Below, piece by piece: positions 2,952-20,438 of a stretch of 36,964 nt of DNA (the stretch's first letter is position 1; each line of letters begins with the position of its first letter). Source of the stretch: a virus. The stretch lies in IMG/VR virus record IMGVR_UViG_3300033996_001317, positions 1-36,964 of that record. The stretch is one strand, 5' to 3'. Both the position numbers and the translations under genes were made by a program. The notes under the pieces are model-generated. The model was not told where the DNA came from, did no database searches, and saw nothing but the letters and a program-made list of their open reading frames with translations.

Positions 2952-3284
2952 TCAGTCGCCCTTTGGAGTTTTTCCACCCACAATCACCCGATGCACCTCG
3001 TCGACTTTTTGCGAGATGACCTCGGTTTTTTTTACCTCTGACTCTGCGATTTTTACTAGCATTTCACCGTTTTTCACCTGCGCGGCCTGAGTCTCGGTTA
3101 GCTGATTAACCGTGTCGAAGTGGTTGTTGAGAAGTTTGTCGAACCTCGGTTGAAGCCACGTTATTAGATTCCACGCAATTAACCCAAACACGAACACCAA
3201 AAACGTTGGCCAGCCATGGCGATCAAGCAGTTTGACCCAGCCCGTTGGGATTTCAATTGATGTCTTTTCAGCTTTTTCAACCAT
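2952..3284 (-). CDS. Membrane-anchored coiled-coil protein (holin/spanin-like candidate)
   Basis: 110 residues from the ATG at 3284, chosen because AAGGGG lies upstream and the longer open frame reaches back through the preceding gene. Residues about 1-25 are amphipathic. Residues about 26-46 (WPTFLVFVFGLIAWNLITWL) form one TM segment. The rest is a charged helix (LTETQAAQVKNGEMLV, then KKTEVISQKVDEVHRVI) with coiled-coil character. One TM followed by a periplasmic coiled coil is the architecture of i-spanins and of some tail-anchored phage membrane proteins. Gene context supports a lysis or envelope role; there is no direct homology. Confidence 0.6.
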   Translation of the reverse strand: MVEKAEKTSIEIPTGWVKLLDRHGWPTFLVFVFGLIAWNLITWLQPRFDKLLNNHFDTVNQLTETQAAQVKNGEMLVKIAESEVKKTEVISQKVDEVHRVIVGGKTPKGD

Positions 3285-3295
3285 CGCCCAGCCCC

Positions 3296-3754: not shown

Positions 3755-3792
3755 GTCACTCCTCGCGGATTCTATCACCGCAATGACGCTTA

Positions 3793-5397
3793 TCAATTTT
3801 TGATCGGAAATTTCACGTCGCGATAGATCCGAGACTTGTGAAACTCGAACACAATCTCATCAGCACAAATCGTCAAACCTGTCAACGGTCGAGAATACTC
3901 TACACGCAAAAGCCCCATAAAAAAAGCCCAATGCGCCCTGACTGCAGGTTCGCCCCGGTCGAATCGGATGGAACACGTCTCCCCGATTGTGGCTGTGATA
4001 GCAATGTTTTCCGCCAAGTAAACGTCGATCGTCGGATGCAAAACATCGTAAACAATTTTAATGGCTTCAATGATTGTCCGTGCAATCAACACCGGATTGC
4101 CGACCTCCCCCGAGGAGCTGACCGTATCAGCGCCGGGCACATCGAACTCGACTTCATCCAGCTTGATCGCAATTTTTCCCGCCTGAAGTCGATAACCAAA
4201 TCCCAGTTTGCTCAGCGGGACATTGCTCGAGCCTTCCACTTGGATATCGATCCTGCCGCTTGTTCCGAGGATGTCAACCAGCTCATGCGACCCGCTCACC
4301 AGCAATGCAGATTTGCCCCCGACTCGCTGCCAGCCGACTTTAATTTTCGACCCATCGGGAAAATACTGCCGTACAGAATCAAGCACCGACTGGATCATAC
4401 TGGCCCCGACAAAATGCCCTTCCGGCTGGCTCTCCGTGATTGCGGCACTGGCTTTTTCTGCAATTGCTTCCCGCAGACTGTCGAGCGATTGGCATCCGTA
4501 AATGACGTGCATCTCACCCGTTGGGCCCGTCCACGAGTGAAACGGATAACCCGCTTTGAGATTACTCGCAAGCCATTCCGCTGTCATCCATTTGGCCGGT
4601 CCCACCTGTCGCGTCACCACTATTGAAGCATCACCGGCTCCTATATTTTTGTGCGACCGATTGCACGGCGGACACGGGAATGGAGCGGTCCAAAATGTTA
4701 CCTGCGTGACCTGCGTAGCCAGTGCCCCCAGCTCCACCGGCATCAGTCCACGCATCAACGATACCGGCGTGTAGACCGATTGTCGCTGATCCAGTCGCGT
4801 GCCGTTAATCAAGCCGACGAGTCGCCCCTCATCGTCAAACAGCCCACCGCCTGACCTTCCCTCGACCTGCTGTCCGTCCGTCATGATTGTTCCTCTGTCT
4901 CGTGATATCAGTTTGTGATTGATCTTCGAACCGGATCCCACGCTGACCAGCGATTGCGGCAACTGATCGTCGCTGGCCATCACCGCAGCCGGGATGTCAC
5001 CGTTAATCGTCAGCACCGCGGCGTCTACCTTTCGATCCGATGCGACCAACACCGCGGGGAATGATTGCCCCCCCTGTCGCACCCGATACTGTGGACTGCT
5101 CACCCCTCGCGCAATGTGCTCGCACGTCAGTACGAGGCATTTGCCCCCGCTTGACCTTACGCACGTCCCTGACCCCGCGTAGCGCACCCGGCCACCGTCG
5201 ATGGCCTCCACGATCACGCTGGCTCGCATGGGATCGTCAGTGGTGGCCTGCTCGGGAGTCGCGGCAACTGCAATCACCAGCCGGAACTCACTCGACCCCA
5301 CCGGATCATCCGGGATCTCAAATTCGCTCGGGATCTCAAGCCCCTGACCCAAGATTGTTCTTGGAATCACCAGCATCAAAACAAATAGGCATTTCAT
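3793..5397 (-). CDS. Secreted trypsin-like serine protease fused to a CPPC thioredoxin-like domain
   Basis: 534 residues from the ATG at 5397, which overlaps the stop of the papain-like gene (ATGA). The open frame is longer upstream but only this start gives a signal peptide (MKCLFVLMLVIPRTILG). Residues about 38-225 form a trypsin-like (S1, HtrA-type) domain with all three catalytic residues visible: His94 in LTCEHIARG, Asp125 in DRKVDAAVL and Ser182 in EGRSGGGLF. Residues about 232-315 begin VTFWTAPFPCPPCNR, a thioredoxin-like start with CPPC at 242-245, ending near HVIYGCQSLDSL. Residues about 320-534 form a further beta-rich domain I do not recognise. The product should act outside the inner membrane. 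A protease joined to a redox-type domain is unusual in phages. Confidence 0.85.
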   Translation of the reverse strand: MKCLFVLMLVIPRTILGQGLEIPSEFEIPDDPVGSSEFRLVIAVAATPEQATTDDPMRASVIVEAIDGGRVRYAGSGTCVRSSGGKCLVLTCEHIARGVSSPQYRVRQGGQSFPAVLVASDRKVDAAVLTINGDIPAAVMASDDQLPQSLVSVGSGSKINHKLISRDRGTIMTDGQQVEGRSGGGLFDDEGRLVGLINGTRLDQRQSVYTPVSLMRGLMPVELGALATQVTQVTFWTAPFPCPPCNRSHKNIGAGDASIVVTRQVGPAKWMTAEWLASNLKAGYPFHSWTGPTGEMHVIYGCQSLDSLREAIAEKASAAITESQPEGHFVGASMIQSVLDSVRQYFPDGSKIKVGWQRVGGKSALLVSGSHELVDILGTSGRIDIQVEGSSNVPLSKLGFGYRLQAGKIAIKLDEVEFDVPGADTVSSSGEVGNPVLIARTIIEAIKIVYDVLHPTIDVYLAENIAITATIGETCSIRFDRGEPAVRAHWAFFMGLLRVEYSRPLTGLTICADEIVFEFHKSRIYRDVKFPIKN

Positions 5398-6179
5398 TCG
5401 GTTTGCTCCACGATGTACGCTCGATCCGCAATTTGCTGCGAGTATTCGACAACTCCAAGCCCGCCCTGACCCCATCCGGTGCCCCACGAATTCACAAACA
5501 ACACTCCGTAACGAGTGTAATCTGTTGCCGGTCGCGATGGGTATCGGTCGAGCACTGCCAGGAACAAAACCGCGTGGCCCCACCAATTGAGCGCGGCAAC
5601 TAGCGGATAGCCTAAGAATAACCTTGAGCCCTGCGCTTGGTGATCTCGGGGAATGGATCTGGCCATTGAGATTTTATTGCTTGCCGCATCGTCTCGCCAA
5701 CCGCCCCTGAAATCGCGGGAATTGGTCGTCAGCATCGGGACGAAATCTTCGCTCGCGACTCCCTGTGTCCGCATCCCTTCGAGCGCGGACTCAATGTAGT
5801 AGCCTCGATCTGTGTATCCAACAATTGGCGCCGCCACCGAAGACGGCGACAATCGGCGAAACGGTCTTGCCTCGACCTCTCGTTGCAGCATCATCCCCGC
5901 CACCGACGAAAACGCCCAGCAGTACGACGATTGACCCTGATTTAGCACGCCGATCCGCGAGCGTTGCCAAACATGATAGAGACTCGACTCATCCTCGTCT
6001 TGCTGCCGGATTGCCTCCGGCCATCGCTCATACGGGATCGTCAGCACCGGAGTCCCCGAGGAGACAACCCCCGGCATCTGATAGTCACTGGGCGGCGCAA
6101 GCGTCCCGCACAATCCCGGCTCACCTATCGTAGATTGCTTCCGTGGATCTACCACGTAGCCCCAATTGATGCTACTCAT
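5394..6179 (-). CDS. Papain-like (C1A) cysteine protease
   Basis: 261 residues with the full papain active site: oxyanion Gln81 six residues before the nucleophile Cys87 (NQGQSSYCWAFSSVAG), His202 in WWGHAVLFLAV and Asn230 in FVNSWGTGWGQGG. The catalytic domain covers about residues 65-261. The first 60 residues are Pro-rich and could act as a short pro-region. There is no signal peptide. The start overlaps the upstream gene by 8 bases and the stop overlaps the next start by ATGA, coupling it to a secreted serine protease. Possible roles are host lysis or envelope degradation, virion maturation, or entry. Its position among membrane proteins favours lysis, but this is inference. Confidence 0.88.
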   Translation of the reverse strand: MSSINWGYVVDPRKQSTIGEPGLCGTLAPPSDYQMPGVVSSGTPVLTIPYERWPEAIRQQDEDESSLYHVWQRSRIGVLNQGQSSYCWAFSSVAGMMLQREVEARPFRRLSPSSVAAPIVGYTDRGYYIESALEGMRTQGVASEDFVPMLTTNSRDFRGGWRDDAASNKISMARSIPRDHQAQGSRLFLGYPLVAALNWWGHAVLFLAVLDRYPSRPATDYTRYGVLFVNSWGTGWGQGGLGVVEYSQQIADRAYIVEQTE

Positions 6180-7418: not shown

Positions 7419-7894
7419 TTTGTCACCTCCGTCACTGCCGGAAACCATTTGGCTGTGATGGCCTGCATCAATGCGCCGACCGCTGCGGCAATCTCCGGGG
7501 ACTGCGTTTCGCTAATCATCGCAAGCTCGGTCATCAGCGCGACAACCATTCGCCTCTGTGCTGCCGCGTCTCCGTTTTTGCTGAACGCGACAACGGCCTG
7601 CAGCAACTCGGTTGCGGCCTGCAATTGCTGCTCGATCTCAGCAGGAGGAATTGGAATCCCAGGTGCGATTGTGTCCCTCACCGACTTAATCGTCGGTTGC
7701 CACTGTCTCCAAAACGCGGCGATTGATGCGACCGTTGATCCGGTAAACAGCGACATTAACAGCGAAACCCAGCTCACCGTTGGCGCAGTGACCACCCCGT
7801 CAGCTCCGACAGCCACCGGCTGGCCCGCGAGAAAAGCGACTCCGATGAGGCAGCCGGATGCGACCATTGCAAAAGCGATAGCGATTCTTGACAT
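7415..7894 (-). CDS. Two-TM membrane protein, holin candidate
   Basis: 159 residues. Residues 4-24 (IAIAFAMVASGCLIGVAFL) form a TM or signal segment with a weak lipobox-like ASGC. Residues about 42-62 (WVSLLMSLFTGSTVASIAAF) form a second TM. The remaining 95 residues are soluble, helical and Ala-rich. AAGGAG lies 12 bases upstream of the ATG. The start is inside the tail of the preceding ORF (121 bases of overlap). Two TM segments, a charged C-terminus and a place between small coiled-coil genes and two proteases suggest a holin, but no family signature is seen. Its first TM was copied into the chimeric ORF at 8176-8385. Confidence 0.7.
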   Translation of the reverse strand: MSRIAIAFAMVASGCLIGVAFLAGQPVAVGADGVVTAPTVSWVSLLMSLFTGSTVASIAAFWRQWQPTIKSVRDTIAPGIPIPPAEIEQQLQAATELLQAVVAFSKNGDAAAQRRMVVALMTELAMISETQSPEIAAAVGALMQAITAKWFPAVTEVTK

Positions 7895-8094
7895 GTGTAC
7901 AGATCTCCTTCAAGTTTTGTTGTTTCCGAGTTTGCGATACTGAGTTCGATTTTCAGTTTATCGATCTCGTGTTGCATTTCCGAGACCGTCTTTTCGTGGT
8001 CCTCAAATTTTACGAACTCGCCGTTTTCACTGCGATAACTCCCTCGGAAGTTAATGTATTCCTCATATCGATCGATCGTCTGTTCGCTCGTCAC
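7774..8094 (-). CDS. Small coiled-coil protein with long overlap into the holin-like gene
   Basis: 106 residues from the GTG at 8094 (GGGAGGTGATTGA upstream). The N-terminal 60 residues (FVKFEDHEKTVSEMQHEIDK, then LKIELSIANSETTKLEG) are a coiled coil homologous to the chimeric ORF at 8176-8385. The last 40 residues are read out of frame over the start of the holin-like gene and look non-conserved (SESLFSRASRWLSELTGW), so the original protein probably ended earlier. Function unknown. Confidence 0.6.
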   Translation of the reverse strand: MTSEQTIDRYEEYINFRGSYRSENGEFVKFEDHEKTVSEMQHEIDKLKIELSIANSETTKLEGDLYTCQESLSLLQWSHPAASSESLFSRASRWLSELTGWSLRQR

Positions 8095-8426
8095 TCAATC
8101 ACCTCCCATGTTAAATCGTCTTTGCTCGGGCAACGCTCGCGCGTTGACCACCCCGTCAGTTCCAACAGCCACCGGCTAACCCGCGAGAACAGCGATTCCG
8201 ATGAGACAGGCGGATGCGACCATTGCAAAAGCGATTTCGATTTTCAGTTTATCAATCTCGTTTTGCATGTCCGAGACTATTCTTTCGTGATCGTCAAATA
8301 ACACGAAATCGACGTCGTCGCTTTCCTCCACCTCGAAGTAAAAAATCGTCGTCGTCCATCGCTGAATCGCCTGTTTGTCTGTCACTGAATCACCTCCCAT
8401 TCTAAATCGTCTTTGCTCGGGTAATG
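7790..8426. repeat. Mosaic direct duplications within the coiled-coil/holin-like cluster
   Basis: Three pairs of direct repeats are visible. Pair A is 7790-7879 with 8146-8235 (about 90 bases, about ten differences). Pair B is 7945-8008 with 8236-8299. Pair C is 8096-8135 with 8387-8426. In the second copy A and B lie directly side by side, although they are about 65 bases apart in the first. The segment 8096-8175 is therefore non-coding relic sequence: a copy of the end of the gene at 8382-8624 (CPSKDDLTWEVIE then stop) joined to a copy of the holin-like N-terminal region. The pattern needs at least one duplication and one deletion. Confidence 0.85.
8176..8385 (-). CDS. Chimeric coiled-coil protein with C-terminal TM tail
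   Basis: 69 residues from the GTG at 8385 (GGGAGGTGATTCA upstream, GTGA overlap with the gene before). Residues 1-51 (RIVSDMQNEIDKLKIEI) are homologous to the coiled-coil ORF at 7774-8094. Residues 52-69 (AFAMVASACLIGIAVLAG) match the first TM of the holin-like protein (AFAMVASGCLIGVAFLAG). The frame then stops at TAG where the holin-like gene has CAG. Recombination between paralogous genes thus made a possible tail-anchored membrane protein. Whether it is expressed or a decaying relic is unclear; its frame and ribosome site are intact. Confidence 0.6.
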   Translation of the reverse strand: MTDKQAIQRWTTTIFYFEVEESDDVDFVLFDDHERIVSDMQNEIDKLKIEIAFAMVASACLIGIAVLAG

Positions 8427-8624
8427 TTCCGGCGTTGATTGGTTGATCGCTTTCCAGAGCGAATTGCATTTGTTTTTCAGTCTTCGATTTTCCGTCGTCC
8501 GTCGCTCGACCTCGGCCATAAGCCATTCGATTGCCGCCAACGTTTCACCATCATCAGCAAGCAAAAAAAACCCATCGGCAATTAAAGTGTTTAACAGCTC
8601 AAGGTGTTTATTAGTCCCAGTCAT
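8382..8624 (-). CDS. Small coiled-coil protein of unknown function
   Basis: 80 residues. GGAGGAAGCAACACG precedes the ATG. It has a hydrophobic N-terminus (LELLNTLIADGFFLLADD), then a charged coiled coil (EVERRTTENRRLKNKCNSLW). The C-terminal end (PSKDDLEWEVIQ) reappears as a relic at 8096-8135. It overlaps the gene before by 14 bases and the gene after by GTGA. Confidence 0.65.
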   Translation of the reverse strand: MTGTNKHLELLNTLIADGFFLLADDGETLAAIEWLMAEVERRTTENRRLKNKCNSLWKAINQSTPEHYPSKDDLEWEVIQ

Positions 8625-8901
8625 CGTGTTGCTTCCTCCGGTTATTGTCGACCTCGCCTTGCAGCCTCCCAGTTTCCGTCGTGAGTCGCTCGACCTCTTT
8701 CACTGCGGCATCTGCGCGAGTTTTTTGGACGCAATAATTTCCTAAAACAATTTCGTACGCAGACGCCGCCTTTGCTGAATGGAGCTTTATCGATTTTAGT
8801 TCCTCCTCCGTCAGTAAATCGTATGCGTGGCCCTGCATCGGCAGCGACGCAATCAGCCGCAATCCCCAAGTTGGACCAATCTGATCAACTGTCTTTTTCA
8901 T
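8611..8901 (-). CDS. Small helical protein of unknown function
   Basis: 96 residues, start supported by GAGGACGAGGA immediately upstream. Predicted all alpha; the C-terminal part is a charged coiled coil (KEVERLTTETGRLQGEVDNN) similar in style to EVERRTTENRRLKN of the next gene, suggesting related origin. There is no signal peptide. It belongs to the chain of duplicated coiled-coil genes. Confidence 0.65.
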   Translation of the reverse strand: MKKTVDQIGPTWGLRLIASLPMQGHAYDLLTEEELKSIKLHSAKAASAYEIVLGNYCVQKTRADAAVKEVERLTTETGRLQGEVDNNRRKQHDDWD

Positions 8902-8948
8902 TCCTCGTCCTCTCCTTCTTGTTCATCATCATCATCCGGCTCCTTGTA
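8902..8948 (-). other. In-frame acidic tail after a TGA stop
   Basis: Directly after the TGA ending the 68-residue gene at 8949-9155, the same frame stays open and encodes YKEPDDDDEQEGEDEE, ending at a TGA that overlaps the ATG of the next gene (ATGA). Such an overlap is the normal junction in this genome, so the acidic tail was probably the original C-terminus. In another frame AAGGAGCCGG precedes a 16-codon ORF (ATG at 8935, stop 8885). A nonsense mutation or TGA readthrough could explain this. Confidence 0.5.
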
Positions 8949-9155
8949 TCAATTAAGCCTTACGACCATCCCGCCAGACTCGGGGAATCGCCAAATCAGC
9001 AAACCATCGTTGGCGACAAGTTTTTGCAGTTCATCAAGTGTGTTTTGCTCCGTTTCTTTGCAGACCGATTTATCGCCTTCCTTGATGCACACCTCCACCT
9101 CGTATGGTCGCCTCAAGATCGTTGCGATCTCATTTAGCGTAATCGAACTCACCAT
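8949..9155 (-). CDS. Small protein of unknown function, possibly truncated
   Basis: 68 residues from the ATG at 9155 (GGGAGGTGTCGAG upstream), overlapping the end of the regulator gene by 7 bases. It begins MVSSITLNEIATILRRPYEV, contains two cysteines in an acidic stretch (CIKEGDKSVC), and ends in SGGMVVRLN. A short alpha/beta fold is likely. An open acidic frame follows its TGA. Not recognised. Confidence 0.6.
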   Translation of the reverse strand: MVSSITLNEIATILRRPYEVEVCIKEGDKSVCKETEQNTLDELQKLVANDGLLIWRFPESGGMVVRLN

Positions 9156-9816: not shown

Positions 9817-10569
9817 TTAAACTCCGTATTTTTCTCGCAATGCCTGTTTTGCGGCTTGGATCTTAGCTTGCTGCTCCTCGATTGTCATTGCGGTTTTCGC
9901 GGGCTCCTCACTAACCGACGACTCAAAAAACGGATCGGGAACACGCTGACCGACTTGATAGTATTCTGGTTTGTCGGCGATCTTTTTTGTCGGTGCGGGA
10001 TTGTCTGCGACCCGTATTTTTATGGCCGGTAGGTGCGTGGTCACTTCGATTGCCTCTGGCTGGTCGTATCCGCACTTTGCGTGCTCTGCAGCGATAATTC
10101 CTGGCAATCTGGCGGCTGCGACTGCCGTGAGTAGCCCGCTTGCGATGTGGGCTCGATACGCATCGCAAAATGCTTTCTTTGTCCACGTGATCATCTGCTC
10201 GGTTTCCTGCTCACACAACGCGACCCAGCCCCCGCAGGAGCGGATCGCCGCGTGAATTGCTGGATCATCAAATTTGACGGTTTGGTATCCTCCGTGCTCG
10301 CGGATTGCTTCGAGCACCCGATCCCACGCCAGTAAAGATCGGTCCTGTTCTGCTGGCTGCCGACCGATTGCGTTTTGCCGGATCAGTCCGATTGGTGGCA
10401 ACCCGGCGAAAGTGTTTGTTTTAAGCGTCTCACTGATCCCGGTTTCCCACTGCTCCAGCGTCAGATCCGAGCAAATTCTGAACCACGCGGACGCTTGCTC
10501 GGCTGGAACCTTGCGACCCGTTGTGGCTTCCAGCATCGTCAGCCCCTGTGAAAAATCGGCCTTGTTCAT
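9817..10569 (-). CDS. Replication protein, helicase-loader-like (lambda P / G39P position)
   Basis: 250 residues from the ATG at 10569, set by the strong GGAGGATACCG; the open frame further upstream lies within the preceding gene. Residues 1-90 (MNKADFSQGLTMLEATTGRK, LTLEQWETGI, FAGLPPIGLIRQNAIG) resemble the helical N-terminus of phage loader-type replication proteins, where a short domain ending in a PPIGLIR-like motif is common. The C-terminus is a Gln/Ala/Lys-rich helix (EEQQAKIQAAKQALREKYGV). It follows the O-like gene, as helicase loaders usually do. It overlaps that gene by 140 bases, unusually long for this genome. Confidence 0.65.
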   Translation of the reverse strand: MNKADFSQGLTMLEATTGRKVPAEQASAWFRICSDLTLEQWETGISETLKTNTFAGLPPIGLIRQNAIGRQPAEQDRSLLAWDRVLEAIREHGGYQTVKFDDPAIHAAIRSCGGWVALCEQETEQMITWTKKAFCDAYRAHIASGLLTAVAAARLPGIIAAEHAKCGYDQPEAIEVTTHLPAIKIRVADNPAPTKKIADKPEYYQVGQRVPDPFFESSVSEEPAKTAMTIEEQQAKIQAAKQALREKYGV

Positions 10570-11314
10570 CGGTATCCTCCATAAACGATCGAATTCCAGA
10601 AAACATATCCTTCTGATTGCCCACCGCCCCCGCTGATGGCTCAAAAACGCCCTGCCAGCCGTTTGCGATCGAATGCGTGATAGATTCGATGGCTTTTCGT
10701 TCCCCTGCCTTTGCAAGCGTTTTTAGGAGGGTTTTGGCGCTTGTTGGTTTCATCGGTTTCTTGAGTTCGATCCGATGCTGAACCCACTCGGCCCAGGTTG
10801 ATTGAAACTCGGGAGTGTCCAGCTCCTCGGGGAACTCCGTCTTCGGCTGCGCCTTGACGATCAAAGGGGATTTTTTCTCAACCCCCATATCTGTATTCAT
10901 CTCTTCTCTTCTCTTCTCTGGTAACGCAAAACTAACGCTGTCTGCGTTAGCGTCGTAACGCTTTTCGCGTTTGTTTTTCGTATGCGATTCGACTCGTTTT
11001 GCGGTTTGGCCCCTTGTTTTAGCACCTTTCGACAGATGTCGCTCGAAGTTGGGGATTTTGATTCCCTGCTCATCGGACTGCAGCCACCCCACTTTTTTCA
11101 TGGCGGATGCAAATCCGCTGCGCCCCACTAACGCATCGATTGACGTTTCGCTAACGCTCGCAGCGTTAGTCGTGAAGTTGTCGTCGACCCAGCACCAAAA
11201 TCGAAAACAGATTCCAAATGCCTCGTCGAGACTGATTCCCAGCTCGCCAGCGATTCCGCAGACTTCTGGCTTCCTTGCCGTCGCCTTTTCGATTTTCAAC
11301 CAGTCGCCAGCCAT
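10430..11314 (-). CDS. Replication initiation / replisome organiser protein (lambda O-like position)
   Basis: 294 residues from ATG at 11314; a TTG three codons upstream is possible. Residues 1-100 (GDWLKIEKATARKPEVCGIA, ISLDEAFGICFRFWCWVDDN, VGRSGFASAMKKVGWLQ) look like the winged-helix N-terminal domain of phage replisome organisers. Residues 100-160 are a charged linker (KRVESHTKNKREKRYD). Residues about 170-245 (FQSTWAEWVQHRIELKKPMK, AIESITHSIANGWQGVFEP) resemble the C-terminal domain often found after it. The last 46 residues overlap the loader gene in another frame and are Gly/Ser/Asp-rich and unlike a domain, hinting that an indel removed the original stop. It should bind the origin and recruit the loader. 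Confidence 0.7.
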   Translation of the reverse strand: MAGDWLKIEKATARKPEVCGIAGELGISLDEAFGICFRFWCWVDDNFTTNAASVSETSIDALVGRSGFASAMKKVGWLQSDEQGIKIPNFERHLSKGAKTRGQTAKRVESHTKNKREKRYDANADSVSFALPEKRREEMNTDMGVEKKSPLIVKAQPKTEFPEELDTPEFQSTWAEWVQHRIELKKPMKPTSAKTLLKTLAKAGERKAIESITHSIANGWQGVFEPSAGAVGNQKDMFSGIRSFMEDTDEQGRFFTGADDAGSHNGSQGSSRASVRVVQNLLGSDAGAVGNRDQ

Positions 11315-11319
11315 GATTC

Positions 11320-11625
11320 TCAATCAAAAAGAGTTTTCGGCTTCGGTTTCGGCTGCGTCGGTCGTGCGATCGGCAGCCCCAGTTGTTGTCGTCCTTTGTC
11401 GGTCAGCATCACGATCCTAGGGTAAATACCCCGGCTTGGTTTGAGGCTGCACACCGGCCCCAGCCCGTCTGCTGTTGCAATCCATCCAGCATGGAATCCA
11501 CCCTCAATCCACTCAGGCACGGCCCAGTGCATCCGCTGGCCCCAAATTACTCGACATGCAATCTCGACCTCCTGCGGCTCGTCGAATTGCAGGAGGAATC
11601 GATCGTGCTCGCTCACGTGCGTCAT
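11320..11625 (-). CDS. Hypothetical protein in the replication cluster
   Basis: 101 residues, mostly beta, with aromatic residues (RMHWAVPEWIEGGFHAGWIA) and a Pro/Lys-rich tail (PTQPKPKPKTLF). The sequence MLTDKGRQQLGLP recalls the end of small wing domains. The start overlaps the gene before by ATGA. Not recognised; its location suggests an accessory role in replication or recombination. Confidence 0.65.
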   Translation of the reverse strand: MTHVSEHDRFLLQFDEPQEVEIACRVIWGQRMHWAVPEWIEGGFHAGWIATADGLGPVCSLKPSRGIYPRIVMLTDKGRQQLGLPIARPTQPKPKPKTLFD

Positions 11626-12733: not shown

Positions 12734-13126
12734 TCACCCCTCCCTTCCTTTCTCGTTAGTCTTCCACGCATGGCAATCTGCGCACAGCACTTGCAGCCCA
12801 TCGACCTCGACAAACAAACGCTCGGCGAACCCCTCAAGATCCGCAAACGACCTGAGCGACCCACATGGCAAAACATGATCCGCCTCGACTTGATTGCGTG
12901 GAAACCACCCCTCACATCGTCGACACTGATACTGCCATTTAAGTCTCCGATTTTCGCTCTGGTTTTTTCTTCGAGCAGCATCAAAAACCTGTCGCACGAG
13001 CGGCGGCCATCGTCTGGATTTTTCCCGCAGCCCCGACCGTATAAAGCTCCAGAACTCCGCCTCCGTCCACTCGCCCCCAGCCCTGGTTCTCGGGACGGTT
13101 CGGCGGCTGGCTGATTTTTTCTTCAT
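12734..13126 (-). CDS. HNH endonuclease
   Basis: 130 residues. Basic N-terminus (MKKKSASRRTVPRTRAGGEW), then a helical part (WPPLVRQVFDAARRKNQ) and an HNH/treble-clef core: YQCRRCEGWF (first zinc knuckle), VEADHVLPCG (catalytic His region), and LQVLCADCHAWKTN (second knuckle with the final His). It should cleave DNA using one metal ion and a structural zinc. Such HNH proteins near recT genes may act in recombination, packaging or as free-standing homing enzymes. The start overlaps the recT stop by ATGA. Confidence 0.85.
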   Translation of the reverse strand: MKKKSASRRTVPRTRAGGEWTEAEFWSFIRSGLREKSRRWPPLVRQVFDAARRKNQSENRRLKWQYQCRRCEGWFPRNQVEADHVLPCGSLRSFADLEGFAERLFVEVDGLQVLCADCHAWKTNEKGREG

Positions 13127-14199
13127 GTTTTCACCACCTTTGCCAGCTCGATCATCTCACGGACAATCTGCGGTGTCTCCGCTTTCATCGCGTCGAGAAT
13201 TGCGAGTCCCCTCCGCGATTTCATTTCGTCCAGCCCGTTGCCAATTTTGATCGTGATTCCGTCCGGCAGAAGGTAGGAAAACGGCCCCGCGTCTGATTCG
13301 GCGTCGGTCGAGTCGATGCCCGCAGATTGCAGCATCGTGTCACACTCCCGCAGCGTCGATGTCAGCGGCTGCCGCTCGGGCTCCTGGTCCTCCATCTCAT
13401 CGCGTTGTTGTTGTGCTTCCTGCTGGATCTCGTTCGACTCCGATCGTTGGGAAAGTAGCGTGGCGATCGCGTCCGATTTTGATTTCAGTAGTTCCTTAGT
13501 CATCACTAGTCGCGTCGGTTGCTGCTGCGTGACCGATTGCCGGCGCGACGACTGAGACTCGCCTTGCTCAATGTCACGCTCAAACTCCTCTCGCAGATAG
13601 CATTGCGCCAGCGTCGACGGAAACGCTTGCCGAAGCGCGGACCCCTGAGCCACCTTGACAATCATGCCTGACGGATCGGCTTTCCATCGAGACATTCCGG
13701 TTGTGTATGTCGAAAATAATACAGTCGAACAAATCGGCCGGCTTCGGTCTCGTCGGTAAACTATTGCCCACCCCCCGACGATTGTTTCGCCTGGCAAAAC
13801 AATCGTTCCCGCTCGTTGCTGTGGTTCGGACTCTCCATTTCGCACGATCACCACCCCTGATTCCATTCCGTCAAATTCGCTGCTCAGCTCAGCCCGCTTC
13901 AAGAGGCTTTGGTGAGCGGTAATCATCGTAAACGTCGGCCCGTCGTTGCCGTCGTAGCCAACTAGGTATGCGTCGCGAACCCAAGGATTGAGCCCATTTG
14001 CCTGGCAAAGCTTCATAAAAAGTATGATGTCTTTGGCGGTTGCTACCTTTCCGCTTTTCGTTTTGGCGGCGATGAAATTTGTCACATCGTTGACACTCAG
14101 GCTGATTTCATTTTTTTCACCAAATGGCGTGTATCTCACCGCAAATGGCTTGTCATCTTGCTTGACGATCTCGGTTTGTTTCGTCGTTCCGTTGCTCAT
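13123..14199 (-). CDS. recT: RecT-family single-strand annealing protein
   Basis: 358 residues from ATG at 14199 (AAGGAAATGAC upstream). The RecT core spans about residues 25-215: VNDVTNFIAAKTKSG, FMKLCQANGLNPWVRDAYLV, TMITAHQSLLKRAE, ETIVGGWAIVYRRDR, WKADPSGMIVKVAQGSALRQ and AFPSTLAQCYLREEFE are typical of the family. The C-terminal part is Gln/Ser-rich and then a short helical region. It anneals complementary strands made by the YqaJ exonuclease encoded two genes upstream. Confidence 0.92.
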   Translation of the reverse strand: MSNGTTKQTEIVKQDDKPFAVRYTPFGEKNEISLSVNDVTNFIAAKTKSGKVATAKDIILFMKLCQANGLNPWVRDAYLVGYDGNDGPTFTMITAHQSLLKRAELSSEFDGMESGVVIVRNGESEPQQRAGTIVLPGETIVGGWAIVYRRDRSRPICSTVLFSTYTTGMSRWKADPSGMIVKVAQGSALRQAFPSTLAQCYLREEFERDIEQGESQSSRRQSVTQQQPTRLVMTKELLKSKSDAIATLLSQRSESNEIQQEAQQQRDEMEDQEPERQPLTSTLRECDTMLQSAGIDSTDAESDAGPFSYLLPDGITIKIGNGLDEMKSRRGLAILDAMKAETPQIVREMIELAKVVKT

Positions 14200-14234: not shown

Positions 14235-15665
14235 TCACTCAGTTGAAAACATCTTGTAACGCAACTCCCCATCGGTCGCCTCGGCCGTGAACAACGCCAC
14301 GCCACGCGACTGACAATGTTTCGCGATTGCCATTTGGTTTGCTGGATCTAGTGCCTCCCAGCACTCTTGCGGGATCGATAGTAGACTGTCAGCCCCTGCG
14401 ATCTCGATCACAATATCAAGAGCGATCCGCCATCGTTCCCCGGCTGACAGATCATCGTATAGCGTTGGCCCCCGCGATGTGTCGTAATACAGTCGGCCAT
14501 TCATAACCGCGAGATCGACCCCGAGTCTGTTGATTTGCTCCGACAGGATACCGTCGATTTTGGCTGCCCCGGCTCGGCAATACTTTCCCAAGTTGGCATC
14601 GTGATCCGCTACCCGCTGCCACTTGTCAGCCCCGTCTCGGTCGATGTGTTTTTTTCGCTGGATCTCACCTGCTTGTTCGCGATGCCTCGCGTTTTCGACG
14701 GCAACCACCCTTTCGGTTATGTACTTGCCATCGATTAGCATTGGCTCGCCAGCGTCCACAACAGCCCGCAGTTCCCGCTGTGATTTTTCGATCTGCTGTG
14801 TGTGCCGAAGCTCCTGCATCCACGATTTTAGGTTGCTTTGAGCGTCGACGAGCTTGACTTTCAGTAAATCAATTTCATTTTGCGTTTCGCGGGCTCGCGT
14901 TTCCCACCACTTGATCTTGTGCTCGATTTCATTCATCGGCTTGTAGTCAGTGGCCATTTGGTCAAGCTGGCTTTTGCACGTAATCCACTGCGATCGTTGC
15001 TCTTGTCTGGCTTGCGCAGACCCCTGGATTTCGGCAAGATCGCGAATTGCTTGTTCGCTTAAAGCCCGCAGCTTATCCCCATCCCGCTCGATTGTCGAAT
15101 CGATCCCCTGACACTGCTCGTACAGCAGCGATGCTCTGGCGGTCGCGGCGGCTGCTGAATTCTCGGAGAATCTCGCCAACTTTTCGATCTCGTCCTTGAG
15201 ATTTGCGGCAATTTTCAGAACGTCCTCCGACTCGACAACGCGATTCTTGGCGTGGTCATACCCCTCAACCCCATCGAAGATCCCGATGTCCGGCTCAACC
15301 CCGGCGAATTGAATCAACGTACGAATTCTGGCTCGATCTGATGCCTCGGGATCGACAAAACCGGGATCAACTAATTTGTCAATCGAGTGTTTGCCCTCGA
15401 TCGATTGGAGCTCCAGTTCCCCGGCTCGCGTCGTTGATTTGGCCACACGCAGCGTGATTCCCGGTGCGGTTACTTTTCCAAATTTGGCCCCGTCTCGTGC
15501 TGTAAGCCCTCGGTCTTTGGCTCCCGCAGCCGTTGCGATCGCGTCAAGTGCGGTTGATTTTCCGCAGCCGTTTGCGCCCTGCAGGACAACCACCCCGCCC
15601 CTCTCAGGGATCGGTAGCGTCAGATGGACGATAGCCTTGACGTCGTCTATTTTAATTTCTTTCAT
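14235..15665 (-). CDS. RecF/SMC-like AAA ATPase with coiled coil
   Basis: 476 residues from ATG at 15665 (GGAACGAGAC upstream). Walker A is VVVLQGANGCGKST at about residues 25-38. Residues about 150-330 are a long coiled coil (TQNEIDLLKVKLVDAQSNLK). The ABC signature DLSAGERWRIALDIVIEI is at the C-terminal side. The following Walker B position reads SLLSIPQECWEALD, where the usual Asp-Glu pair is replaced, so hydrolysis may be weak. It lies between exonuclease and annealing genes, as in other phage recombination operons with SbcC/RecF-like ATPases. It probably organises DNA ends or the nuclease. Confidence 0.85.
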   Translation of the reverse strand: MKEIKIDDVKAIVHLTLPIPERGGVVVLQGANGCGKSTALDAIATAAGAKDRGLTARDGAKFGKVTAPGITLRVAKSTTRAGELELQSIEGKHSIDKLVDPGFVDPEASDRARIRTLIQFAGVEPDIGIFDGVEGYDHAKNRVVESEDVLKIAANLKDEIEKLARFSENSAAAATARASLLYEQCQGIDSTIERDGDKLRALSEQAIRDLAEIQGSAQARQEQRSQWITCKSQLDQMATDYKPMNEIEHKIKWWETRARETQNEIDLLKVKLVDAQSNLKSWMQELRHTQQIEKSQRELRAVVDAGEPMLIDGKYITERVVAVENARHREQAGEIQRKKHIDRDGADKWQRVADHDANLGKYCRAGAAKIDGILSEQINRLGVDLAVMNGRLYYDTSRGPTLYDDLSAGERWRIALDIVIEIAGADSLLSIPQECWEALDPANQMAIAKHCQSRGVALFTAEATDGELRYKMFSTE

Positions 15666-15708: not shown

Positions 15709-16629
15709 TCAGTTCGGTTTTTTGGTTGCTCGGAAATCAATGTAACATGACGCACCAACAAGGTATCCCGGTTTCTGGATCAGCTTTCTGCGGACAATTC
15801 GACCATCCCCGAGATCGCCTGCGTAGTTGTCCCCGATCGCATACAGCACCTCGGATTTGTATCGCTCGCGTCGATCATTCAGCTCCTTGACTTGCTTGCC
15901 CAGTGACTCGTAGGAAAACCATGCGTCGGCTGTGATGTCCTCAAGCTCGACCACCTGCCCATTGATGTCGCTGTGCATCTCCCTGATAAGCTTCGGCGTC
16001 GATTCGTGCTCCCAATTCGGCTCGGGGGGATCGTCATTTTGAATTCGTTCCCACAACTCCTGCCCGGCGTCAATAAGGTAGCCAATCATCAGTTCATTGC
16101 GATCGACCTTGTATATTTTTGTTTTTGCCCCATCGAAAAGAACCGGCACAAATACCGTCTGAACATGATCCCCCATCACCGCCATTTGCCACTGGCATTG
16201 ACATAGGTACTGCCCCGGAATCTGATCTGTGTCCTCCTCGTTCCATCGACTGTTCATTCGCCACGTTGTCGTCTTCGCCTCGACTAGCTCAGACTCAGAT
16301 AGGATCGTGTCTGGCGTCGCTGTCATCCACGGCCGTGCGATACTGCGAAACATTGGTGGATGCGGATCCAGCGGGACTGTCTGCGTGATTTGGTGGAACC
16401 TGGTTAGGACAACCGGCTCCAGCAGCCTTCCCATGATCATCGGTTCGGTTTCTTCGAGTGGTGGCAGCCTCCCCATCTTTCGCAAAAAGACTTCGAGGCT
16501 AGTCTGATAACATCCCTCGTCTTTCCCGAGTCCCGCTGCTGCGGCGATCTCACTGGCCCCGATCCCGGTATTGCGTGCCGCGTACCATTCTGGCGTGTGA
16601 GGCCTTGCGACAATTTCAGCCTGCTTCAT
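15709..16629 (-). CDS. YqaJ/lambda-exonuclease family viral recombinase exonuclease
   Basis: 306 residues from ATG at 16629, chosen over the GTG three codons upstream because GGAGGGTGATAACA then has proper spacing. Motifs of the PD-(D/E)XK family are seen in order: TGIGASEIAAAAG, MIMGRLLEPVVLTRF (active-site Glu helix), TPDTILSESELVEAKTT (the Asp and the E-x-K) and YLCQCQWQMAVMG (Gln-box). It resects double-stranded ends 5' to 3' to feed RecT. The gene overlaps the preceding one by 14 bases. Confidence 0.92.
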   Translation of the reverse strand: MKQAEIVARPHTPEWYAARNTGIGASEIAAAAGLGKDEGCYQTSLEVFLRKMGRLPPLEETEPMIMGRLLEPVVLTRFHQITQTVPLDPHPPMFRSIARPWMTATPDTILSESELVEAKTTTWRMNSRWNEEDTDQIPGQYLCQCQWQMAVMGDHVQTVFVPVLFDGAKTKIYKVDRNELMIGYLIDAGQELWERIQNDDPPEPNWEHESTPKLIREMHSDINGQVVELEDITADAWFSYESLGKQVKELNDRRERYKSEVLYAIGDNYAGDLGDGRIVRRKLIQKPGYLVGASCYIDFRATKKPN

Positions 16630-16864
16630 TGTTATCACCCTCCGTTGGCTTGTTCATCTGCGTGATTCGGTAGGTTGGTCGGATTAGTTCCGCCTTAAAC
16701 AAGATCCCTCGCTCCTCCCACAGGAAGCCCGGAAACAACGGATTAAACTCGGGGCAAACCGCAATCATGCTTCCTGCTGAGTTCCGAATAACATCCTCAA
16801 GTCTGTCTGTTAATTCACGGCGAAACTTTAGCTGCCGTAAGTCAATCTCCTGCGGCTGATTCAT
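16616..16864 (-). CDS. Hypothetical protein upstream of the exonuclease
   Basis: 82 residues from ATG at 16864 (GAGGA about 9 bases upstream); a TTG three codons earlier is less likely. Begins MNQPQEIDLRQLKFRRELTD, then a compact mixed region (MIAVCPEFNPLFPGFLWEER). Co-transcribed with exonuclease, ATPase and recT, so possibly a recombination accessory. No known family. Confidence 0.6.
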   Translation of the reverse strand: MNQPQEIDLRQLKFRRELTDRLEDVIRNSAGSMIAVCPEFNPLFPGFLWEERGILFKAELIRPTYRITQMNKPTEGDNNEAG

Positions 16865-16865
16865 C

Positions 16866-16943
16866 TCATTCAATCCTCAAGCACCACGCTGCAAGCGAGC
16901 AAATCACGACGATTGCTCCGCTGATAATCACGTCTCGAACCAT
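16866..16943 (-). CDS. 25-residue single-TM peptide
   Basis: Reads MVRDVIISGAIVVICSLAAW then CLRIE. A GGAGG lies 12 bases before the ATG, and the ATG follows the csrA stop after one base. The central 18 residues are hydrophobic with a charged residue pair on each side, a minimal transmembrane helix. Too short for usual gene finders. The tight placement between csrA and the next gene supports translation. Confidence 0.5.
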   Translation of the reverse strand: MVRDVIISGAIVVICSLAAWCLRIE

Positions 16944-16944: not shown

Positions 16945-17151
16945 TCAATTGTCCTCCGTCTTGACCTTGCCACGCTCGGCAAGCGAACCCTCGCTTTTAA
17001 TCTTGTCGTATACAGCCCTTCTGTGAATCACATGTTTTTTTGGTGCTTCAAACCCGAGTTGCACAACACCGTTTGCGTTTTTTACAATCCAAATAACGAT
17101 GTCATCGTTAATAAAAAACTGATCCCCGATCTTTCCTGACAGATTGAGCAT
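16945..17151 (-). CDS. csrA: CsrA-family RNA-binding translational regulator
   Basis: 68 residues, the usual CsrA length. The alignment to bacterial CsrA is clear by eye: MLNLSGKIGDQFFINDDIVI for MLILTRRVGE..., then GVVQLGFEAPKKHVIHRRAV with H43-R44 in register with the RNA-binding His-Arg of CsrA, and YDKIKSEG. Arg6 and Arg7 of the canonical protein are Gly6 and Lys7 here, so RNA affinity or specificity may differ. The ATG has GGAGGGGGGATGAC. CsrA dimers bind GGA motifs in leaders, usually blocking ribosome binding. This leader and related ones upstream contain GGGGGATGAC, which fits auto-control or control of neighbours; that is inference. Confidence 0.85.
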   Translation of the reverse strand: MLNLSGKIGDQFFINDDIVIWIVKNANGVVQLGFEAPKKHVIHRRAVYDKIKSEGSLAERGKVKTEDN

Positions 17152-17169
17152 GTCATCCCCCCTCCGTGG

Positions 17170-18042
17170 TTATTGTTTCGCGTCGAATTCCATGATTCCG
17201 TCACAGATGTTTTCGGCGCTGTCGCGGGCCAGTCGACCCCAAGTTTTCTCTGGGGCTCGCCCAGAATCCACCTGCTCTATCCCGCCACGCACACAAATCA
17301 GCGTGACCTCATCCATCATTCGTTCGCGTCGATGTCGCTGGTGTCGGTCCTCGTCCGATTCCAGATTCGTCGGTTTGTGGGCCGCGAGATCATTCAATCG
17401 CTTAAACAACTTCTGTTGCAGTGCCTCGTCGCTGGTCTCCGTCATTTCATCACCTTGTTTTTTGTTGGCCATTTCGAGTTCATTGATCCGCTCGCTGGCC
17501 CAAATAATCGACGCTGCGTCGTCGGATGTTGCCCGAAGATCTATGTGAATTCCATTTTTGAGATGTAAAACAACGTCCTCAAAAATCATCCTGTGTCCGG
17601 TGATTTTCGCCGCAGTCATATCCCCCATGTCATCCCCCTTGTTTTCTCGTGATTTTTCTGATGTTCCCGAGACGGCCGCCTGGGACAGCTTGATCTCGGC
17701 TTTCAGCTCATCGATCGTCGCATTACGTTCATGCAGGTGCGATTCAAGATCTGCAATTTTTTTCTCTATCTGCTCGAGAAACTCCGCCATTTCGCTTGCG
17801 TGCTTCTCAAGGCTTGCGATTTCTTCCTCTTTTTCACTGCGCGCACCAAGCATGGCTTTCGCCTGTTCCTCAAGGCTCGATTGCAGGCTTGCGATGCGTC
17901 GCTCTTTTTCACTGAACACACCAAGCATGGCTTTCGCCTGTTCCTCCAGATACTGGATGCGACCTTGGCCCCATTGCAGCGCTTCGCGGTTGTCTTGACT
18001 AATCCACGTCGAATCAAAAAACATCTCTCGCGGCGTTTCCAT
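17170..18042 (-). CDS. Coiled-coil protein that looks like three fused genes
   Basis: 290 residues from ATG at 18042 (AAGGGGGATGAC). Module 1 (to about 17630) is a coiled coil with a 25-residue repeat (EEQAKAMLG, SEKE, IASL). Module 2 starts at an internal ATG (17628), again with AAGGGGGATGAC, and encodes MTAAKITGHRMIFEDVVLHL onward. Module 3 starts at an internal ATG (17445) after AAGGTGATGAA and encodes a conserved-looking domain (DEVTLICVRGGIEQVDSGRA, then WGRLARDSAENICDGI). The in-frame linkers NKGDDM, NKGDDM and KKQGDEM are simply the translated ribosome sites. Nested translation of shorter products is likely. Function unknown; possibly regulatory. Confidence 0.7.
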   Translation of the reverse strand: METPREMFFDSTWISQDNREALQWGQGRIQYLEEQAKAMLGVFSEKERRIASLQSSLEEQAKAMLGARSEKEEEIASLEKHASEMAEFLEQIEKKIADLESHLHERNATIDELKAEIKLSQAAVSGTSEKSRENKGDDMGDMTAAKITGHRMIFEDVVLHLKNGIHIDLRATSDDAASIIWASERINELEMANKKQGDEMTETSDEALQQKLFKRLNDLAAHKPTNLESDEDRHQRHRRERMMDEVTLICVRGGIEQVDSGRAPEKTWGRLARDSAENICDGIMEFDAKQ

Positions 18043-18100
18043 GTCATCCCCCTTGTTTTTTCGTGATTTCCCAGATGTTCCCGAAACAGACTTCGGGAAC
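17628..18100 (-). repeat. Direct repeat of leader sequence at two module starts, plus 75-base repeat
   Basis: 17628-17680 and 18040-18092 (plus strand CATGTCATCCCCCTTGTTTT, then TCGTGATTT and GATGTTCCCGA) are near identical. Each ends a module with VSGTS(E/G)KSR(E/K)NKGDDM in translation. Within module 1 the element CACCAAGCATGGCTTTCGCC occurs at 17844 and again at 17919, a 75-base period matching a 25-residue protein repeat. The leader pair could recombine and explain the fusion. Confidence 0.8.
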
Positions 18101-18129
18101 AGAAAACACCCCTCGCAGAATCGCAATTG

Positions 18130-18267: not shown

Positions 18268-18354
18268 TCATCGCATTTTGTTCGCGGCCCAGATCGCGGC
18301 GACGATGATTTCCACCACCGAAAGCCCAGCAATCCACGCAAGTATTGTGATCAT
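18268..18354 (-). CDS. 28-residue single-TM peptide
   Basis: Reads MITILAWIAGLSVVEIIVAA then IWAANKMR. The ATG overlaps the stop of the HTH gene (ATGA), with AAGGTCAAAA as ribosome site. About 20 hydrophobic residues are followed by a positive tail, so a small membrane peptide. It may be the N-terminus of a longer protein now cut by TGA. Confidence 0.5.
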   Translation of the reverse strand: MITILAWIAGLSVVEIIVAAIWAANKMR

Positions 18355-18623
18355 TTTTTGACCTTTTTTGATTTAATCCAATCGCAAAAATCGCTCCCGA
18401 CGATGAAAACTACCTGCCCGTTTTTGACTGACGTCAGCCCCTGCCTGATCCATCCGCGAATCGTCCTGCGGCTCGATCCCACGGCAGCCGCCAGCGCGTC
18501 GATGGTGTAGGTTTTGTCGGGATCAATTGGCTCAGGATGTCGCGTCACTTGTGATGTGCTCGATTTGGTATGGATTTGGTATTGATTTCGTCCCAAATTA
18601 GCATCGGCAGTTTTTGCCGTCAA
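18351..18623 (-). CDS. Excisionase/AlpA-like helix-turn-helix protein
   Basis: 90 residues from a TTG at 18623; no ATG or GTG is available and the ribosome site is weak, so the start is uncertain. Residues about 38-85 (YTIDALAAAVGSSRRTIRGW, IRQGLTSVKNGQVVFIVG, DFCDWIKSK) match a MerR/Xis-type winged helix: two short helices, a turn and a beta wing. It could be a recombination directionality factor or an early transcription factor. No integrase is visible in this window to pair with it. Confidence 0.65.
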   Translation of the reverse strand: MTAKTADANLGRNQYQIHTKSSTSQVTRHPEPIDPDKTYTIDALAAAVGSSRRTIRGWIRQGLTSVKNGQVVFIVGSDFCDWIKSKKVKK

Positions 18624-18641: not shown

Positions 18642-18908
18642 TCAGGATTTTGACTTGGCCAACTTTTTCTTTTGAGCCAGCAAAGTCCTTTCCGTGAATT
18701 TGTGCCCCGGCTTCGGCCCCATGCTTGGACGCGGCAGGAATTTGTGGGCTCTTCCCACAGTTCCAATCGCAATTAGACCTTGACGAATGAGATGTTCGAT
18801 TGCCTCCGATCGATTCAGACTCCTGAGAACGACTGAGCCAGCGATAATTTTTAGCGTGTCCGGCATCAGGCGGATGCTGATTGCCGGGGACAGTGGTTTT
18901 TCGGTCAT
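18642..18908 (-). CDS. Ribbon-helix-helix-like protein
   Basis: 88 residues. The N-terminal part (AISIRLMPDTLKIIAGSVVL, then RSLNRSEAIEHLIRQGL) has the ribbon-helix-helix pattern of CopG/Arc repressors: a beta strand with alternating residues and two helices with the SRSEAI-like turn. The C-terminus is basic (KLAKSKS). GAAAG lies 8 bases before the ATG; modest. An early repressor or plasmid-type regulator is likely. Confidence 0.65.
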   Translation of the reverse strand: MTEKPLSPAISIRLMPDTLKIIAGSVVLRSLNRSEAIEHLIRQGLIAIGTVGRAHKFLPRPSMGPKPGHKFTERTLLAQKKKLAKSKS

Positions 18909-19241: not shown

Positions 19242-19280
19242 GTTAGTTGGCCCGCAGCACATGCGACGGGCTTGGGTTGT
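19242..19280 (-). repeat. Hairpin leader element, copy 2
   Basis: Minus strand ACAACCCAAGCCCGTCGCAT then GTGCTGCGGGCCAACTAAC. GCCCG and CGGGC arms enclose a GCATGTGC-type centre. It lies between the stop of the 105-residue gene and the ribosome site of the zinc-ribbon gene. Confidence 0.85.
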
Positions 19281-19597
19281 CACATCAGGCCGGATTGCAT
19301 TTGCTGGTGTCGCCAGTGCGTCACGGCCGAGCACGATTTCAGGCTGGCGGTCCGGTGCCGCCAGACTACGCTGCAGGTGTTCCCGAACTCGTCGGGGGAA
19401 TGATTGATTGCGATTGTTTTCTGTCCGTCCGCCCAGCGGATGATCTCCACGGACAATGCGGAGAATCCATATTTTTTACCTATTCGGCGGGCAAACTTAC
19501 CCTGCCGAACTGTGATTTTGGGACCGTCCATCGTATGTGCTCTGAAGTCCACTTCTCGTCCACCAAATCGCAATGACGTTGCAATCTGTGTTTTCAT
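19280..19597 (-). CDS. Small protein of unknown function between hairpin elements
   Basis: 105 residues, ATG preceded by AAGGAACGAGACC. Basic, with MKTQIATSLRFGGREVDFRA, ITVRQGKFARRIGKKYGFSA and ADGQKTIAINHSPD. It appears to be a small alpha/beta protein of the accessory early type. Copy 2 of the hairpin begins at its stop codon and copy 3 precedes its ribosome site. Confidence 0.65.
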   Translation of the reverse strand: MKTQIATSLRFGGREVDFRAHTMDGPKITVRQGKFARRIGKKYGFSALSVEIIRWADGQKTIAINHSPDEFGNTCSVVWRHRTASLKSCSAVTHWRHQQMQSGLM

Positions 19598-19616
19598 GGT
19601 CTCGTTCCTTGTTTGA

Positions 19617-19657
19617 GTTAGTTAGCCCCCCGCACATGCGACGGGCTTGGGGTTGTT
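19617..19657 (-). repeat. Hairpin leader element, copy 3
   Basis: Minus strand AACAACCCCAAGCCCGTCGC then ATGTGCGGGGGGCTAACTAAC. The CGCA/TGCG arms flank a TG centre. Starts right at the stop of the 98-residue gene and is followed by the ribosome site of the 105-residue gene. Confidence 0.85.
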
Positions 19658-19952
19658 ACTTCTGCGCCGCGAGCCTAAGCTTCCGGCGCACGTCTTGCCG
19701 CACGTGTACCAGTTCTCGTGCGGCGTCCAATTTGTCGCACTCTTCTCCGATCAGCACGTTCCAGCCATTGGACCACCGTGATCCGTCGTGGATTCGTTCG
19801 TCGGTTTGCGGAACCTCGTGGTCCGCGACCCGGACGGCAACGCCGGTTTGCTCATGTCGATAATACACGCTGCCAGATCGGCTTTTGTTGTATCGCACGA
19901 ATCCCATGCGACGGAGGCAGGCGAGCGCGTCGCGATAAAATTGGCTTGCCAT
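19656..19952 (-). CDS. Small protein, HicA-like fold possible
   Basis: 98 residues; AAGGAACGAGACA upstream of the ATG. FYRDALACLRRMGFVRYNKS, then GSVYYRHEQTGVAVRVADHE recalls the helix, GF turn, strand and strand order of HicA-like double-stranded RNA binding domains, but the catalytic-type histidine position is not certain. The C-terminus is helical and basic. No antitoxin partner is recognisable, so I do not call a toxin. Confidence 0.6.
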   Translation of the reverse strand: MASQFYRDALACLRRMGFVRYNKSRSGSVYYRHEQTGVAVRVADHEVPQTDERIHDGSRWSNGWNVLIGEECDKLDAARELVHVRQDVRRKLRLAAQK

Positions 19953-19969
19953 TGTCTCGTTCCTTTCAA

Positions 19970-20008
19970 GTTAGTTGGCCCGCCGCACATGTGACGGGCT
20001 TGGGTTGT
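19970..20008 (-). repeat. Hairpin leader element, copy 4
   Basis: Minus strand ACAACCCAAGCCCGTCACAT then GTGCGGCGGGCCAACTAAC. Arms GCCCG/CGGGC with the palindromic centre CACATGTG. Lies between the 122-residue gene and the ribosome site of the 98-residue gene. Confidence 0.85.
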
Positions 20009-20013: not shown

Positions 20014-20382
20014 TCAGCGGACGAGAGCGGCTCGGCGAGCTCCCTCAGCGACTCCGACGAATTGATATCCGTCCCAGCCACGATTCAGGCTTTCGACATA
20101 GTTCTTATTTTTCTGGGCTTCCGTTTTTGCGGTGACCAGCAATTGCTGTAGGGCAGCAATTGCTGTCCGTCGTGACATCGCAGACTCATATTTTAGCTTG
20201 CGAGTATACCCGGCACCGGAATCTGCGTCTCCGACCGTGTATTGCGTCCCGTCGAGTCGTTCAAATACGGACCAAGTAAAAAACTGTGGGTCTAGCGAAT
20301 GCGTCCCACTGTTTGTGGCAACGATTTCATCAGTGGACAGCATTTTAATTTCTTCAACAATTTGATCGGCAGTCTTGGTCAT
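20014..20382 (-). CDS. First gene of the leftward early operon, unknown function
   Basis: 122 residues from ATG at 20382, chosen because AGGACCGAGACC matches the ribosome site style of the next genes; a GTG at 20421 would leave almost no leader after the promoter. Begins MTKTADQIVEEIKMLSTDEI, contains FTWSVFERLDGTQYTVGDAD and a helical Arg/Ala-rich middle. Being first after the strong promoter suggests an early takeover or regulatory role; no family recognised. Confidence 0.7.
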   Translation of the reverse strand: MTKTADQIVEEIKMLSTDEIVATNSGTHSLDPQFFTWSVFERLDGTQYTVGDADSGAGYTRKLKYESAMSRRTAIAALQQLLVTAKTEAQKNKNYVESLNRGWDGYQFVGVAEGARRAALVR

Positions 20383-20438
20383 GGTCTCGGTCCTTTTTTG
20401 GGTTTGGTTCGCGTCGGCCACGTTGGCTCGACATGTGT

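Follow-up and report, generated by a model that had tools for sequence, protein, structure and literature searches.

Gene content of the early region

The DNA analyzed here (hereafter the window) is a stretch of 36,964 nt from a single IMG/VR virus record. A run of minus-strand genes extends from 20.4 kb to 10 kb and comprises, in order, small early genes, RHH and HTH regulators, a coiled-coil reading frame, csrA, a small ORF, a YqaJ/RecE exonuclease, an AAA/SMC-like ATPase, and RecT. The genes of interest are listed below, with identities given to the prophage P526 (G526:C32), which came out of an exonuclease search of Planctomycetota genomes.

18642-18908, minus-strand run: RHH regulator
18351..18623 (-): HTH protein (MerR/excisionase-like), upstream in the operon (Pfam and PHROG searches)
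17170..18042 (-): coiled-coil ORF, 290 a.a., with internal ATGs (ORF list, translation)
16945..17151 (-): csrA, 68 a.a., with G6-K7, L4, and H43-R44 (Pfam, phrog_9500, modelled fold)
16616..16873 (-): small ORF in the interval between csrA and the exonuclease, with no family (Pfam and PHROG searches)
15709..16638 (-): YqaJ/RecE-type recombination exonuclease (PF09588, E 1.6e-21; phrog_434, E 3e-62)
14235..15665 (-): SMC/RecN-like AAA ATPase (PF13476, E 6e-8; 35% identity in prophage P526)
13123..14199 (-): RecT annealing protein (PF03837, E 2.3e-27; 52% identity in prophage P526)

The YqaJ exonuclease and RecT genes (PF09588 and PF03837, respectively) lie close together on one strand, and the same order is seen in P526. 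One near-identical contig (IMGVR 3300042547_000571) shows zero differences from the window in the csrA region and therefore carries no evolutionary information. Single-protein searches of IMG/VR with the window csrA, YqaJ, and coiled-coil proteins returned only this identical contig or nothing, an Rfam search of the window gave no match, and the C-terminal half of the coiled-coil protein found no match in 392 Planctomycetota genomes.

At the other end of the window, the terminase, portal, and protease/capsid genes (31256-36858) belong to a widespread Planctomycetota prophage family, in which the packaging module is common and the early region is not. The terminase ORF (35275-36858) starts at an unlikely TTG, and contig L007 shows the gene running on past the window end; the record is therefore a cut or permuted genome. 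Given that the CsrA proteins nearest to that of the window are mostly from Planctomycetota, that related terminases occur in 51 of the 392 Planctomycetota genomes, and that the best exonuclease relatives are Planctomycetota prophages, the host is most likely a Planctomycetota bacterium. We did note that six Planctomycetota genomes (G002-G007) each contain 5-9 CsrA genes, some of them inside long open frames, an unusually large repertoire.

The first-pass annotation had assigned a CsrA homologue to a phage early operon, and gene context and family profile both bear this out. The ORF at 16945-17151 (-) matches PF02599 (E 5.7e-13; 49.1 bits, against a curated cut-off of 27) and phrog_9500, "CsrA-like regulator" (E 1.7e-10), and its predicted monomer model (pLDDT 84) contains the CsrA beta-sheet and C-terminal helix, with TM scores of 0.67-0.73 to RsmE-hcnA (2jpp), RsmA (1vpz), and 2bti (0.67-0.71 for the first two). 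It is firmly a genuine member of the CsrA family, at 29-37% identity to the E. coli and B. subtilis CsrA proteins, and homodimer formation and binding of GGA RNA would be expected of it as family traits.

The alignment gave L4, S5, G6, K7, and H43-R44, with the G6-K7 and H43-R44 residues exactly as annotated. Both main RNA-contact residues of CsrA, R44 and L4 (PMC7652899), are thus kept. The G6-K7 pair had been taken as unusual, and this holds for one half of it. K7 can be ruled out as an oddity, as it is the norm in Planctomycetota, being shared by 73 of the 80 genomic CsrAs closest to that of the window (mostly Planctomycetota) and by 17 of 55 distinct viral CsrAs. R6, in turn, is kept in all 54 other distinct viral and all 80 genomic CsrAs, and only the window protein has G6; R6 is a conserved position rather than a published defining feature of the family.

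csrA upstream of recombination genes

In the window and 10 other lineages, csrA lies upstream of, and in the same direction as, a YqaJ/RecE-type exonuclease gene (RecT alone in L299). These lineages are the window, P526 (L237), L243/244, L246/248, L249/251, L262, L263/264, L268, L293, L242 (= P403), and L299. In P526, whose neighbouring proteins are 50% (YqaJ), 35% (ATPase), and 52% (RecT) identical to those of the window, a divergent CsrA gene (Pfam 47.5 bits) occupies the same place. Scans of IMG/VR anchored on YqaJ yielded 442 kb of DNA from 35 lineages (60% identity level), eight of which carry csrA, always upstream and on the same strand. Approximately 0.6 would be expected; the background used was 41 copies in ~35 Mb of six Planctomycetota genomes (~1.2 per Mb), with 1 copy in 753 kb of terminase-linked prophage DNA as an alternative background. 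In seven of the eight, csrA and YqaJ are within ~2 kb of each other, with L242 (= P403) at 5 kb; the gap is 2 nt in L243, and the frames overlap or are adjacent in L246, L262, and L268. Pfam matches confirm a downstream RecT for the window, L246, and L262; for P526, homology does so. csrA is absent from the remaining 27 of the 35 YqaJ lineages and from nearly all terminase-related prophages; the terminase loci and prophages share the packaging module only and so served as background, not as a test of the early operon. The L249/L251 lineage also shares with the window a papain-type-peptidase-like protein (29% identity; L249 3744-4553, window 5394-6179) and the window ORF 10430-11323 (38% identity).

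The linked CsrA proteins are divergent (21-39% identical to that of the window), with R44 invariant in all 11. H43 is replaced (by V, L, A, D, S, or R) in 9 of the 11, versus 4 of the 55 in the general viral set, which was picked by similarity and is thereby biased towards canonical proteins. Given that G6 in the window protein replaces an arginine present in all other homologues examined and H43 is lost in these nine, the RNA specificity of the linked CsrAs may have changed. A tree of the family, built on few columns and with long branches, is compatible with the linked copies forming one clade (p-AU 0.73), and a single origin is neither shown nor rejected; near-identical contig pairs contain zero csrA substitutions and hence give no dN/dS.

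The sequence ANGGA was present in 10 of the 10 linked csrA leaders examined, compared to 76 of 152 other GGA-bearing starts on these contigs (a post hoc comparison, nominal p 0.0014), and at least two GGAs per leader were seen in 6 of 10 versus 57 of 152 (p 0.14, not significant). The ANGGA enrichment is probably for the most part a product of a strong AAGGA Shine-Dalgarno, and is suggestive of regulation only.

The reading we prefer, at slightly short of an even chance, is that the window gene encodes a divergent, phage-adapted CsrA that regulates translation of its own early recombination operon. It builds on what the computation shows: membership of the family, the retention of R44 and L4, and a place ahead of recombination genes that recurs in unrelated phages. 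The operon would comprise csrA, the small ORF, the YqaJ exonuclease, the AAA ATPase, and RecT. Made early, the phage CsrA would dimerise and bind GGA-type sites that overlap ribosome-binding sites of its own polycistronic transcript, thereby lowering or timing translation of itself and of the recombinase genes, much as CsrA and RsmE act at glgC and hcnA.

The targets of the phage CsrA could instead lie mainly among host transcripts: it would compete with or titrate the host CsrAs to switch host metabolism during infection, and its place in the operon would provide early expression only. The first-pass annotation had raised the hijacking of host CsrA targets, and the pertinent observation here is the 5-9 CsrA copies in each Planctomycetota genome. 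The many CsrA genes of the hosts keep such action plausible, as does RsmQ, a plasmid homologue with global control over host translation (PMC9928087); csrA also sits in different contexts in other phages (the early region in F116, the structural module in JC1; PMC9144972). However, csrA directly precedes exonuclease/RecT in 11 lineages, more than early expression alone would predict, and the window protein lacks the R6 that host CsrAs keep. We therefore consider action mainly on host transcripts unlikely, if worth retaining.

Repeated leaders and the coiled-coil frame

In the window, GGGGGATGACATG has three exact matches, all on the minus strand, at the start of csrA and at two ATGs upstream of it. 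Allowing up to two mismatches, six sites were found versus 1.19 expected in shuffles (shuffle maximum 3). The repeated elements are as follows.

18076..18101 (-): inverted repeat TGTTCCCGAA-gtctgt-TTCGGGAACA, upstream of leader copy 1 (sequence, predicted stem)
18039..18102 (-): 64-nt direct repeat, copy 1
18040..18052 (-): GGGGGATGACATG copy 1, at the first of the ATGs in the coiled-coil frame
17625..17688 (-): second copy of the 64-nt direct repeat (83% identity with the first)
17626..17638 (-): GGGGGATGACATG copy 2, inside the coiled-coil frame
17152..17169 (-): 18-nt gap from the coiled-coil stop to csrA, CCACGGAGGGGGGATGAC, in which CACGGA overlaps the Shine-Dalgarno
17149..17161 (-): GGGGGATGACATG copy 3, at the csrA start

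The claim that csrA and the upstream starts share a leader that includes GGA thus stands, with three exact copies being far above chance. The upstream "coiled-coil modules" it was said to precede stand only in part: the motif copies are at ATGs, but the modules form a single uninterrupted reading frame (290 codons; 18042..17170), with internal ATGs at 17628 (after GGGGGATGAC) and ~17446 (after GGTGATGAA). With one of these two ATGs behind an exact copy of the gene-start leader, nested products of the frame (17170-18042) are possible. csrA starts 18 nt past the TAA of this frame and in the same reading frame. Its leader, CCACGGAGGGGGGAUGAC, has only 13 nt in common with the 64-nt repeat, namely the Shine-Dalgarno and spacer. 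The left arm of the inverted repeat is missing from leader copy 2. Two of the three GGGGGATGACATG copies came from a duplication, and the three are non-independent evidence.

A second repeated leader, AAGGAACGAGACCATG, occurs three times on the minus strand among the small early genes (19595-19610, 19950-19965, and 20380-20395), near a repeated hairpin-forming intergenic sequence of 39 nt (19242-19280, 19617-19655, and 19970-20008). Given its presence in the same region, duplicated leaders are a habit of this phage.

A scan of IMG/VR with the 18-nt AACAAGGGGGATGACATG retrieved only the near-identical contig and L299 (IMGVR_UViG_3300043414_001005), whose terminase and portal are 28% and 35% identical to those of the window. 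The L299 leader precedes a coiled-coil-like stretch, with a further 40 nt similar to the window upstream. Because L299 was found by that exact pattern, its 18-nt identity is no sign of constraint, and the upstream similarity alone is independent. In this upstream stretch, L299 and window copy 1 have the peptide PKSVS[GA]TS...NKGDDM in common, and the changes in its first part are mostly synonymous (AAG/AAA, TCT/AGC, TCT/TCG), as if the sequence ahead of the motif codes, or once coded, for protein. The leader is not at the csrA of L299: the CsrA-like gene (Pfam 27.3 bits, barely above the cut-off of 27) is 5 kb away and is followed by a RecT-like gene slightly below its own Pfam cut-off. The regions concerned are 2390-3763 and 7754-9028 (the CsrA-like and RecT-like genes, and the 18-nt leader inside a coiled-coil-like frame). 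Both leader-bearing phage lineages, the window and L299, thus have csrA, with L299 counting as one independent case from a related phage.

These repeats may be start-associated sequences like those of Cluster K mycobacteriophages (SAS/ESAS; PMC3203893) and unrelated to CsrA, which would be compatible with regulation of the operon by CsrA. There, too, a 13-nt sequence marks the starts of a gene subset, with an imperfect inverted repeat just upstream of some copies; in the window, one of three copies matches this, with a 10-bp inverted repeat ~23 nt upstream of the GGGGG run at leader copy 1, and CCGAA..TTCGG lies at the same distance in L299. The AAGGAACGAGACCATG leader, with its own repeated hairpin in the same early region, fits the comparison. 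However, Cluster K genomes contain 11-19 copies across the genome compared to three in the window, the sequence differs, two of the window copies are at ATGs of one frame, and the upstream identity with L299 looks coding. This reading is possible, at less than even odds.

The first-pass annotation went further, suggesting that CsrA may regulate its own operon. The corresponding model has the GGGGGATGAC leaders as a small regulon, with CsrA binding the ribosome-site GGA ahead of csrA and the coiled-coil gene and repressing the two genes. Besides the three exact copies and the presence of csrA in L299, the only other contig with the extended leader, the csrA leader contains CACGGA, the core bound by RsmE in hcnA. 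As a mark of CsrA targets, however, GGGGGATGAC fares poorly. Of the 49 gene starts in the window, 26 have a GGA in the 20 nt before them, because GGA belongs to the Shine-Dalgarno, and the 64-nt duplication explains the leader copies. A CsrA-controlled mRNA leader typically has at least two GGA sites, one or more of them in a hairpin loop and one over the Shine-Dalgarno; here there are several GGAs per leader, with the Shine-Dalgarno GGA outside any predicted hairpin loop; the one hairpin predicted in a leader is upstream of GGGGGATGAC and has GGGA in its stem. Window copy 2 and the L299 copy are both inside open reading frames. Nor is the leader conserved where csrA is present, which by the annotation's own yardstick tells against the model: the motif occurs in a single one of the 55 distinct viral csrA leaders (that of the window itself), in 0 of 80 genomic ones, and in none of the csrA leaders of syntenic relatives, and the 17-nt leader was not found in the 392 Planctomycetota genomes. 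A regulon of this kind is thus improbable; the GGGGGATGAC leaders are probably primarily Shine-Dalgarno and start sequences, which may be contacted by CsrA and are not an established regulon signature.

That csrA is decaying or non-functional and merely carried along is very unlikely, since its low score (53 bits, versus 79-95 for the best host and viral copies) and unique G6 are set against an intact frame, a strong ribosome site, retained R44, L4, and H43, a predicted CsrA fold, and a whole linked family that is divergent yet keeps R44.

Known CsrA systems and the recombination operon

The window protein resembles the CsrA/RsmA/RsmE family (E. coli CsrA, P. fluorescens RsmE-hcnA 2jpp) in its CsrA domain, fold, L4, H43-R44, and a GGA over the ribosome-binding site of its own gene, and differs in having G6 for R6, in being phage-encoded, and in lying within a recombination operon. 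Phage-borne csrA genes are also represented by RsmM of Pseudomonas phages (F116 group), the csrA of Vibrio phage, and gp47 of Burkholderia phage JC1. The F116 and Vibrio genes lie in a cluster of small genes that is not part of the structural region and keep R6, unlike the window, whereas JC1 csrA is in the structural module, apart from recombination genes (PMC9144972). RsmQ of a Pseudomonas conjugative plasmid and CsrT of Legionella ICEs are likewise mobile-element CsrA proteins, but are on conjugative elements, with no link to phage recombination genes. The pairing of csrA with YqaJ is not described in the open-access literature searched, in which the JC1 paper is the sole one containing both names (PMC9144972).

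The presence of csrA in phages was already known (30 of 2517 in 2020; PMC7366521), while its purpose was not, and the same work noted that loss-of-function tests are needed. The new point is the recurrent csrA-exonuclease-RecT arrangement. It singles out the phage's own recombination operon as a specific target that can be tested, and it suggests that phage recombination genes are controlled post-transcriptionally. The linked proteins also include naturally occurring CsrAs that lack H43 or R6, which makes them of use in mapping how RNA is recognised. Tentatively, Planctomycetota phages, and perhaps others, could use a dedicated divergent CsrA subfamily, with R44 kept and H43 or R6 lost, as a translational switch of the exonuclease/RecT operon; were that so, it would be a CsrA-regulated recombination module with no earlier description in the open-access papers searched.
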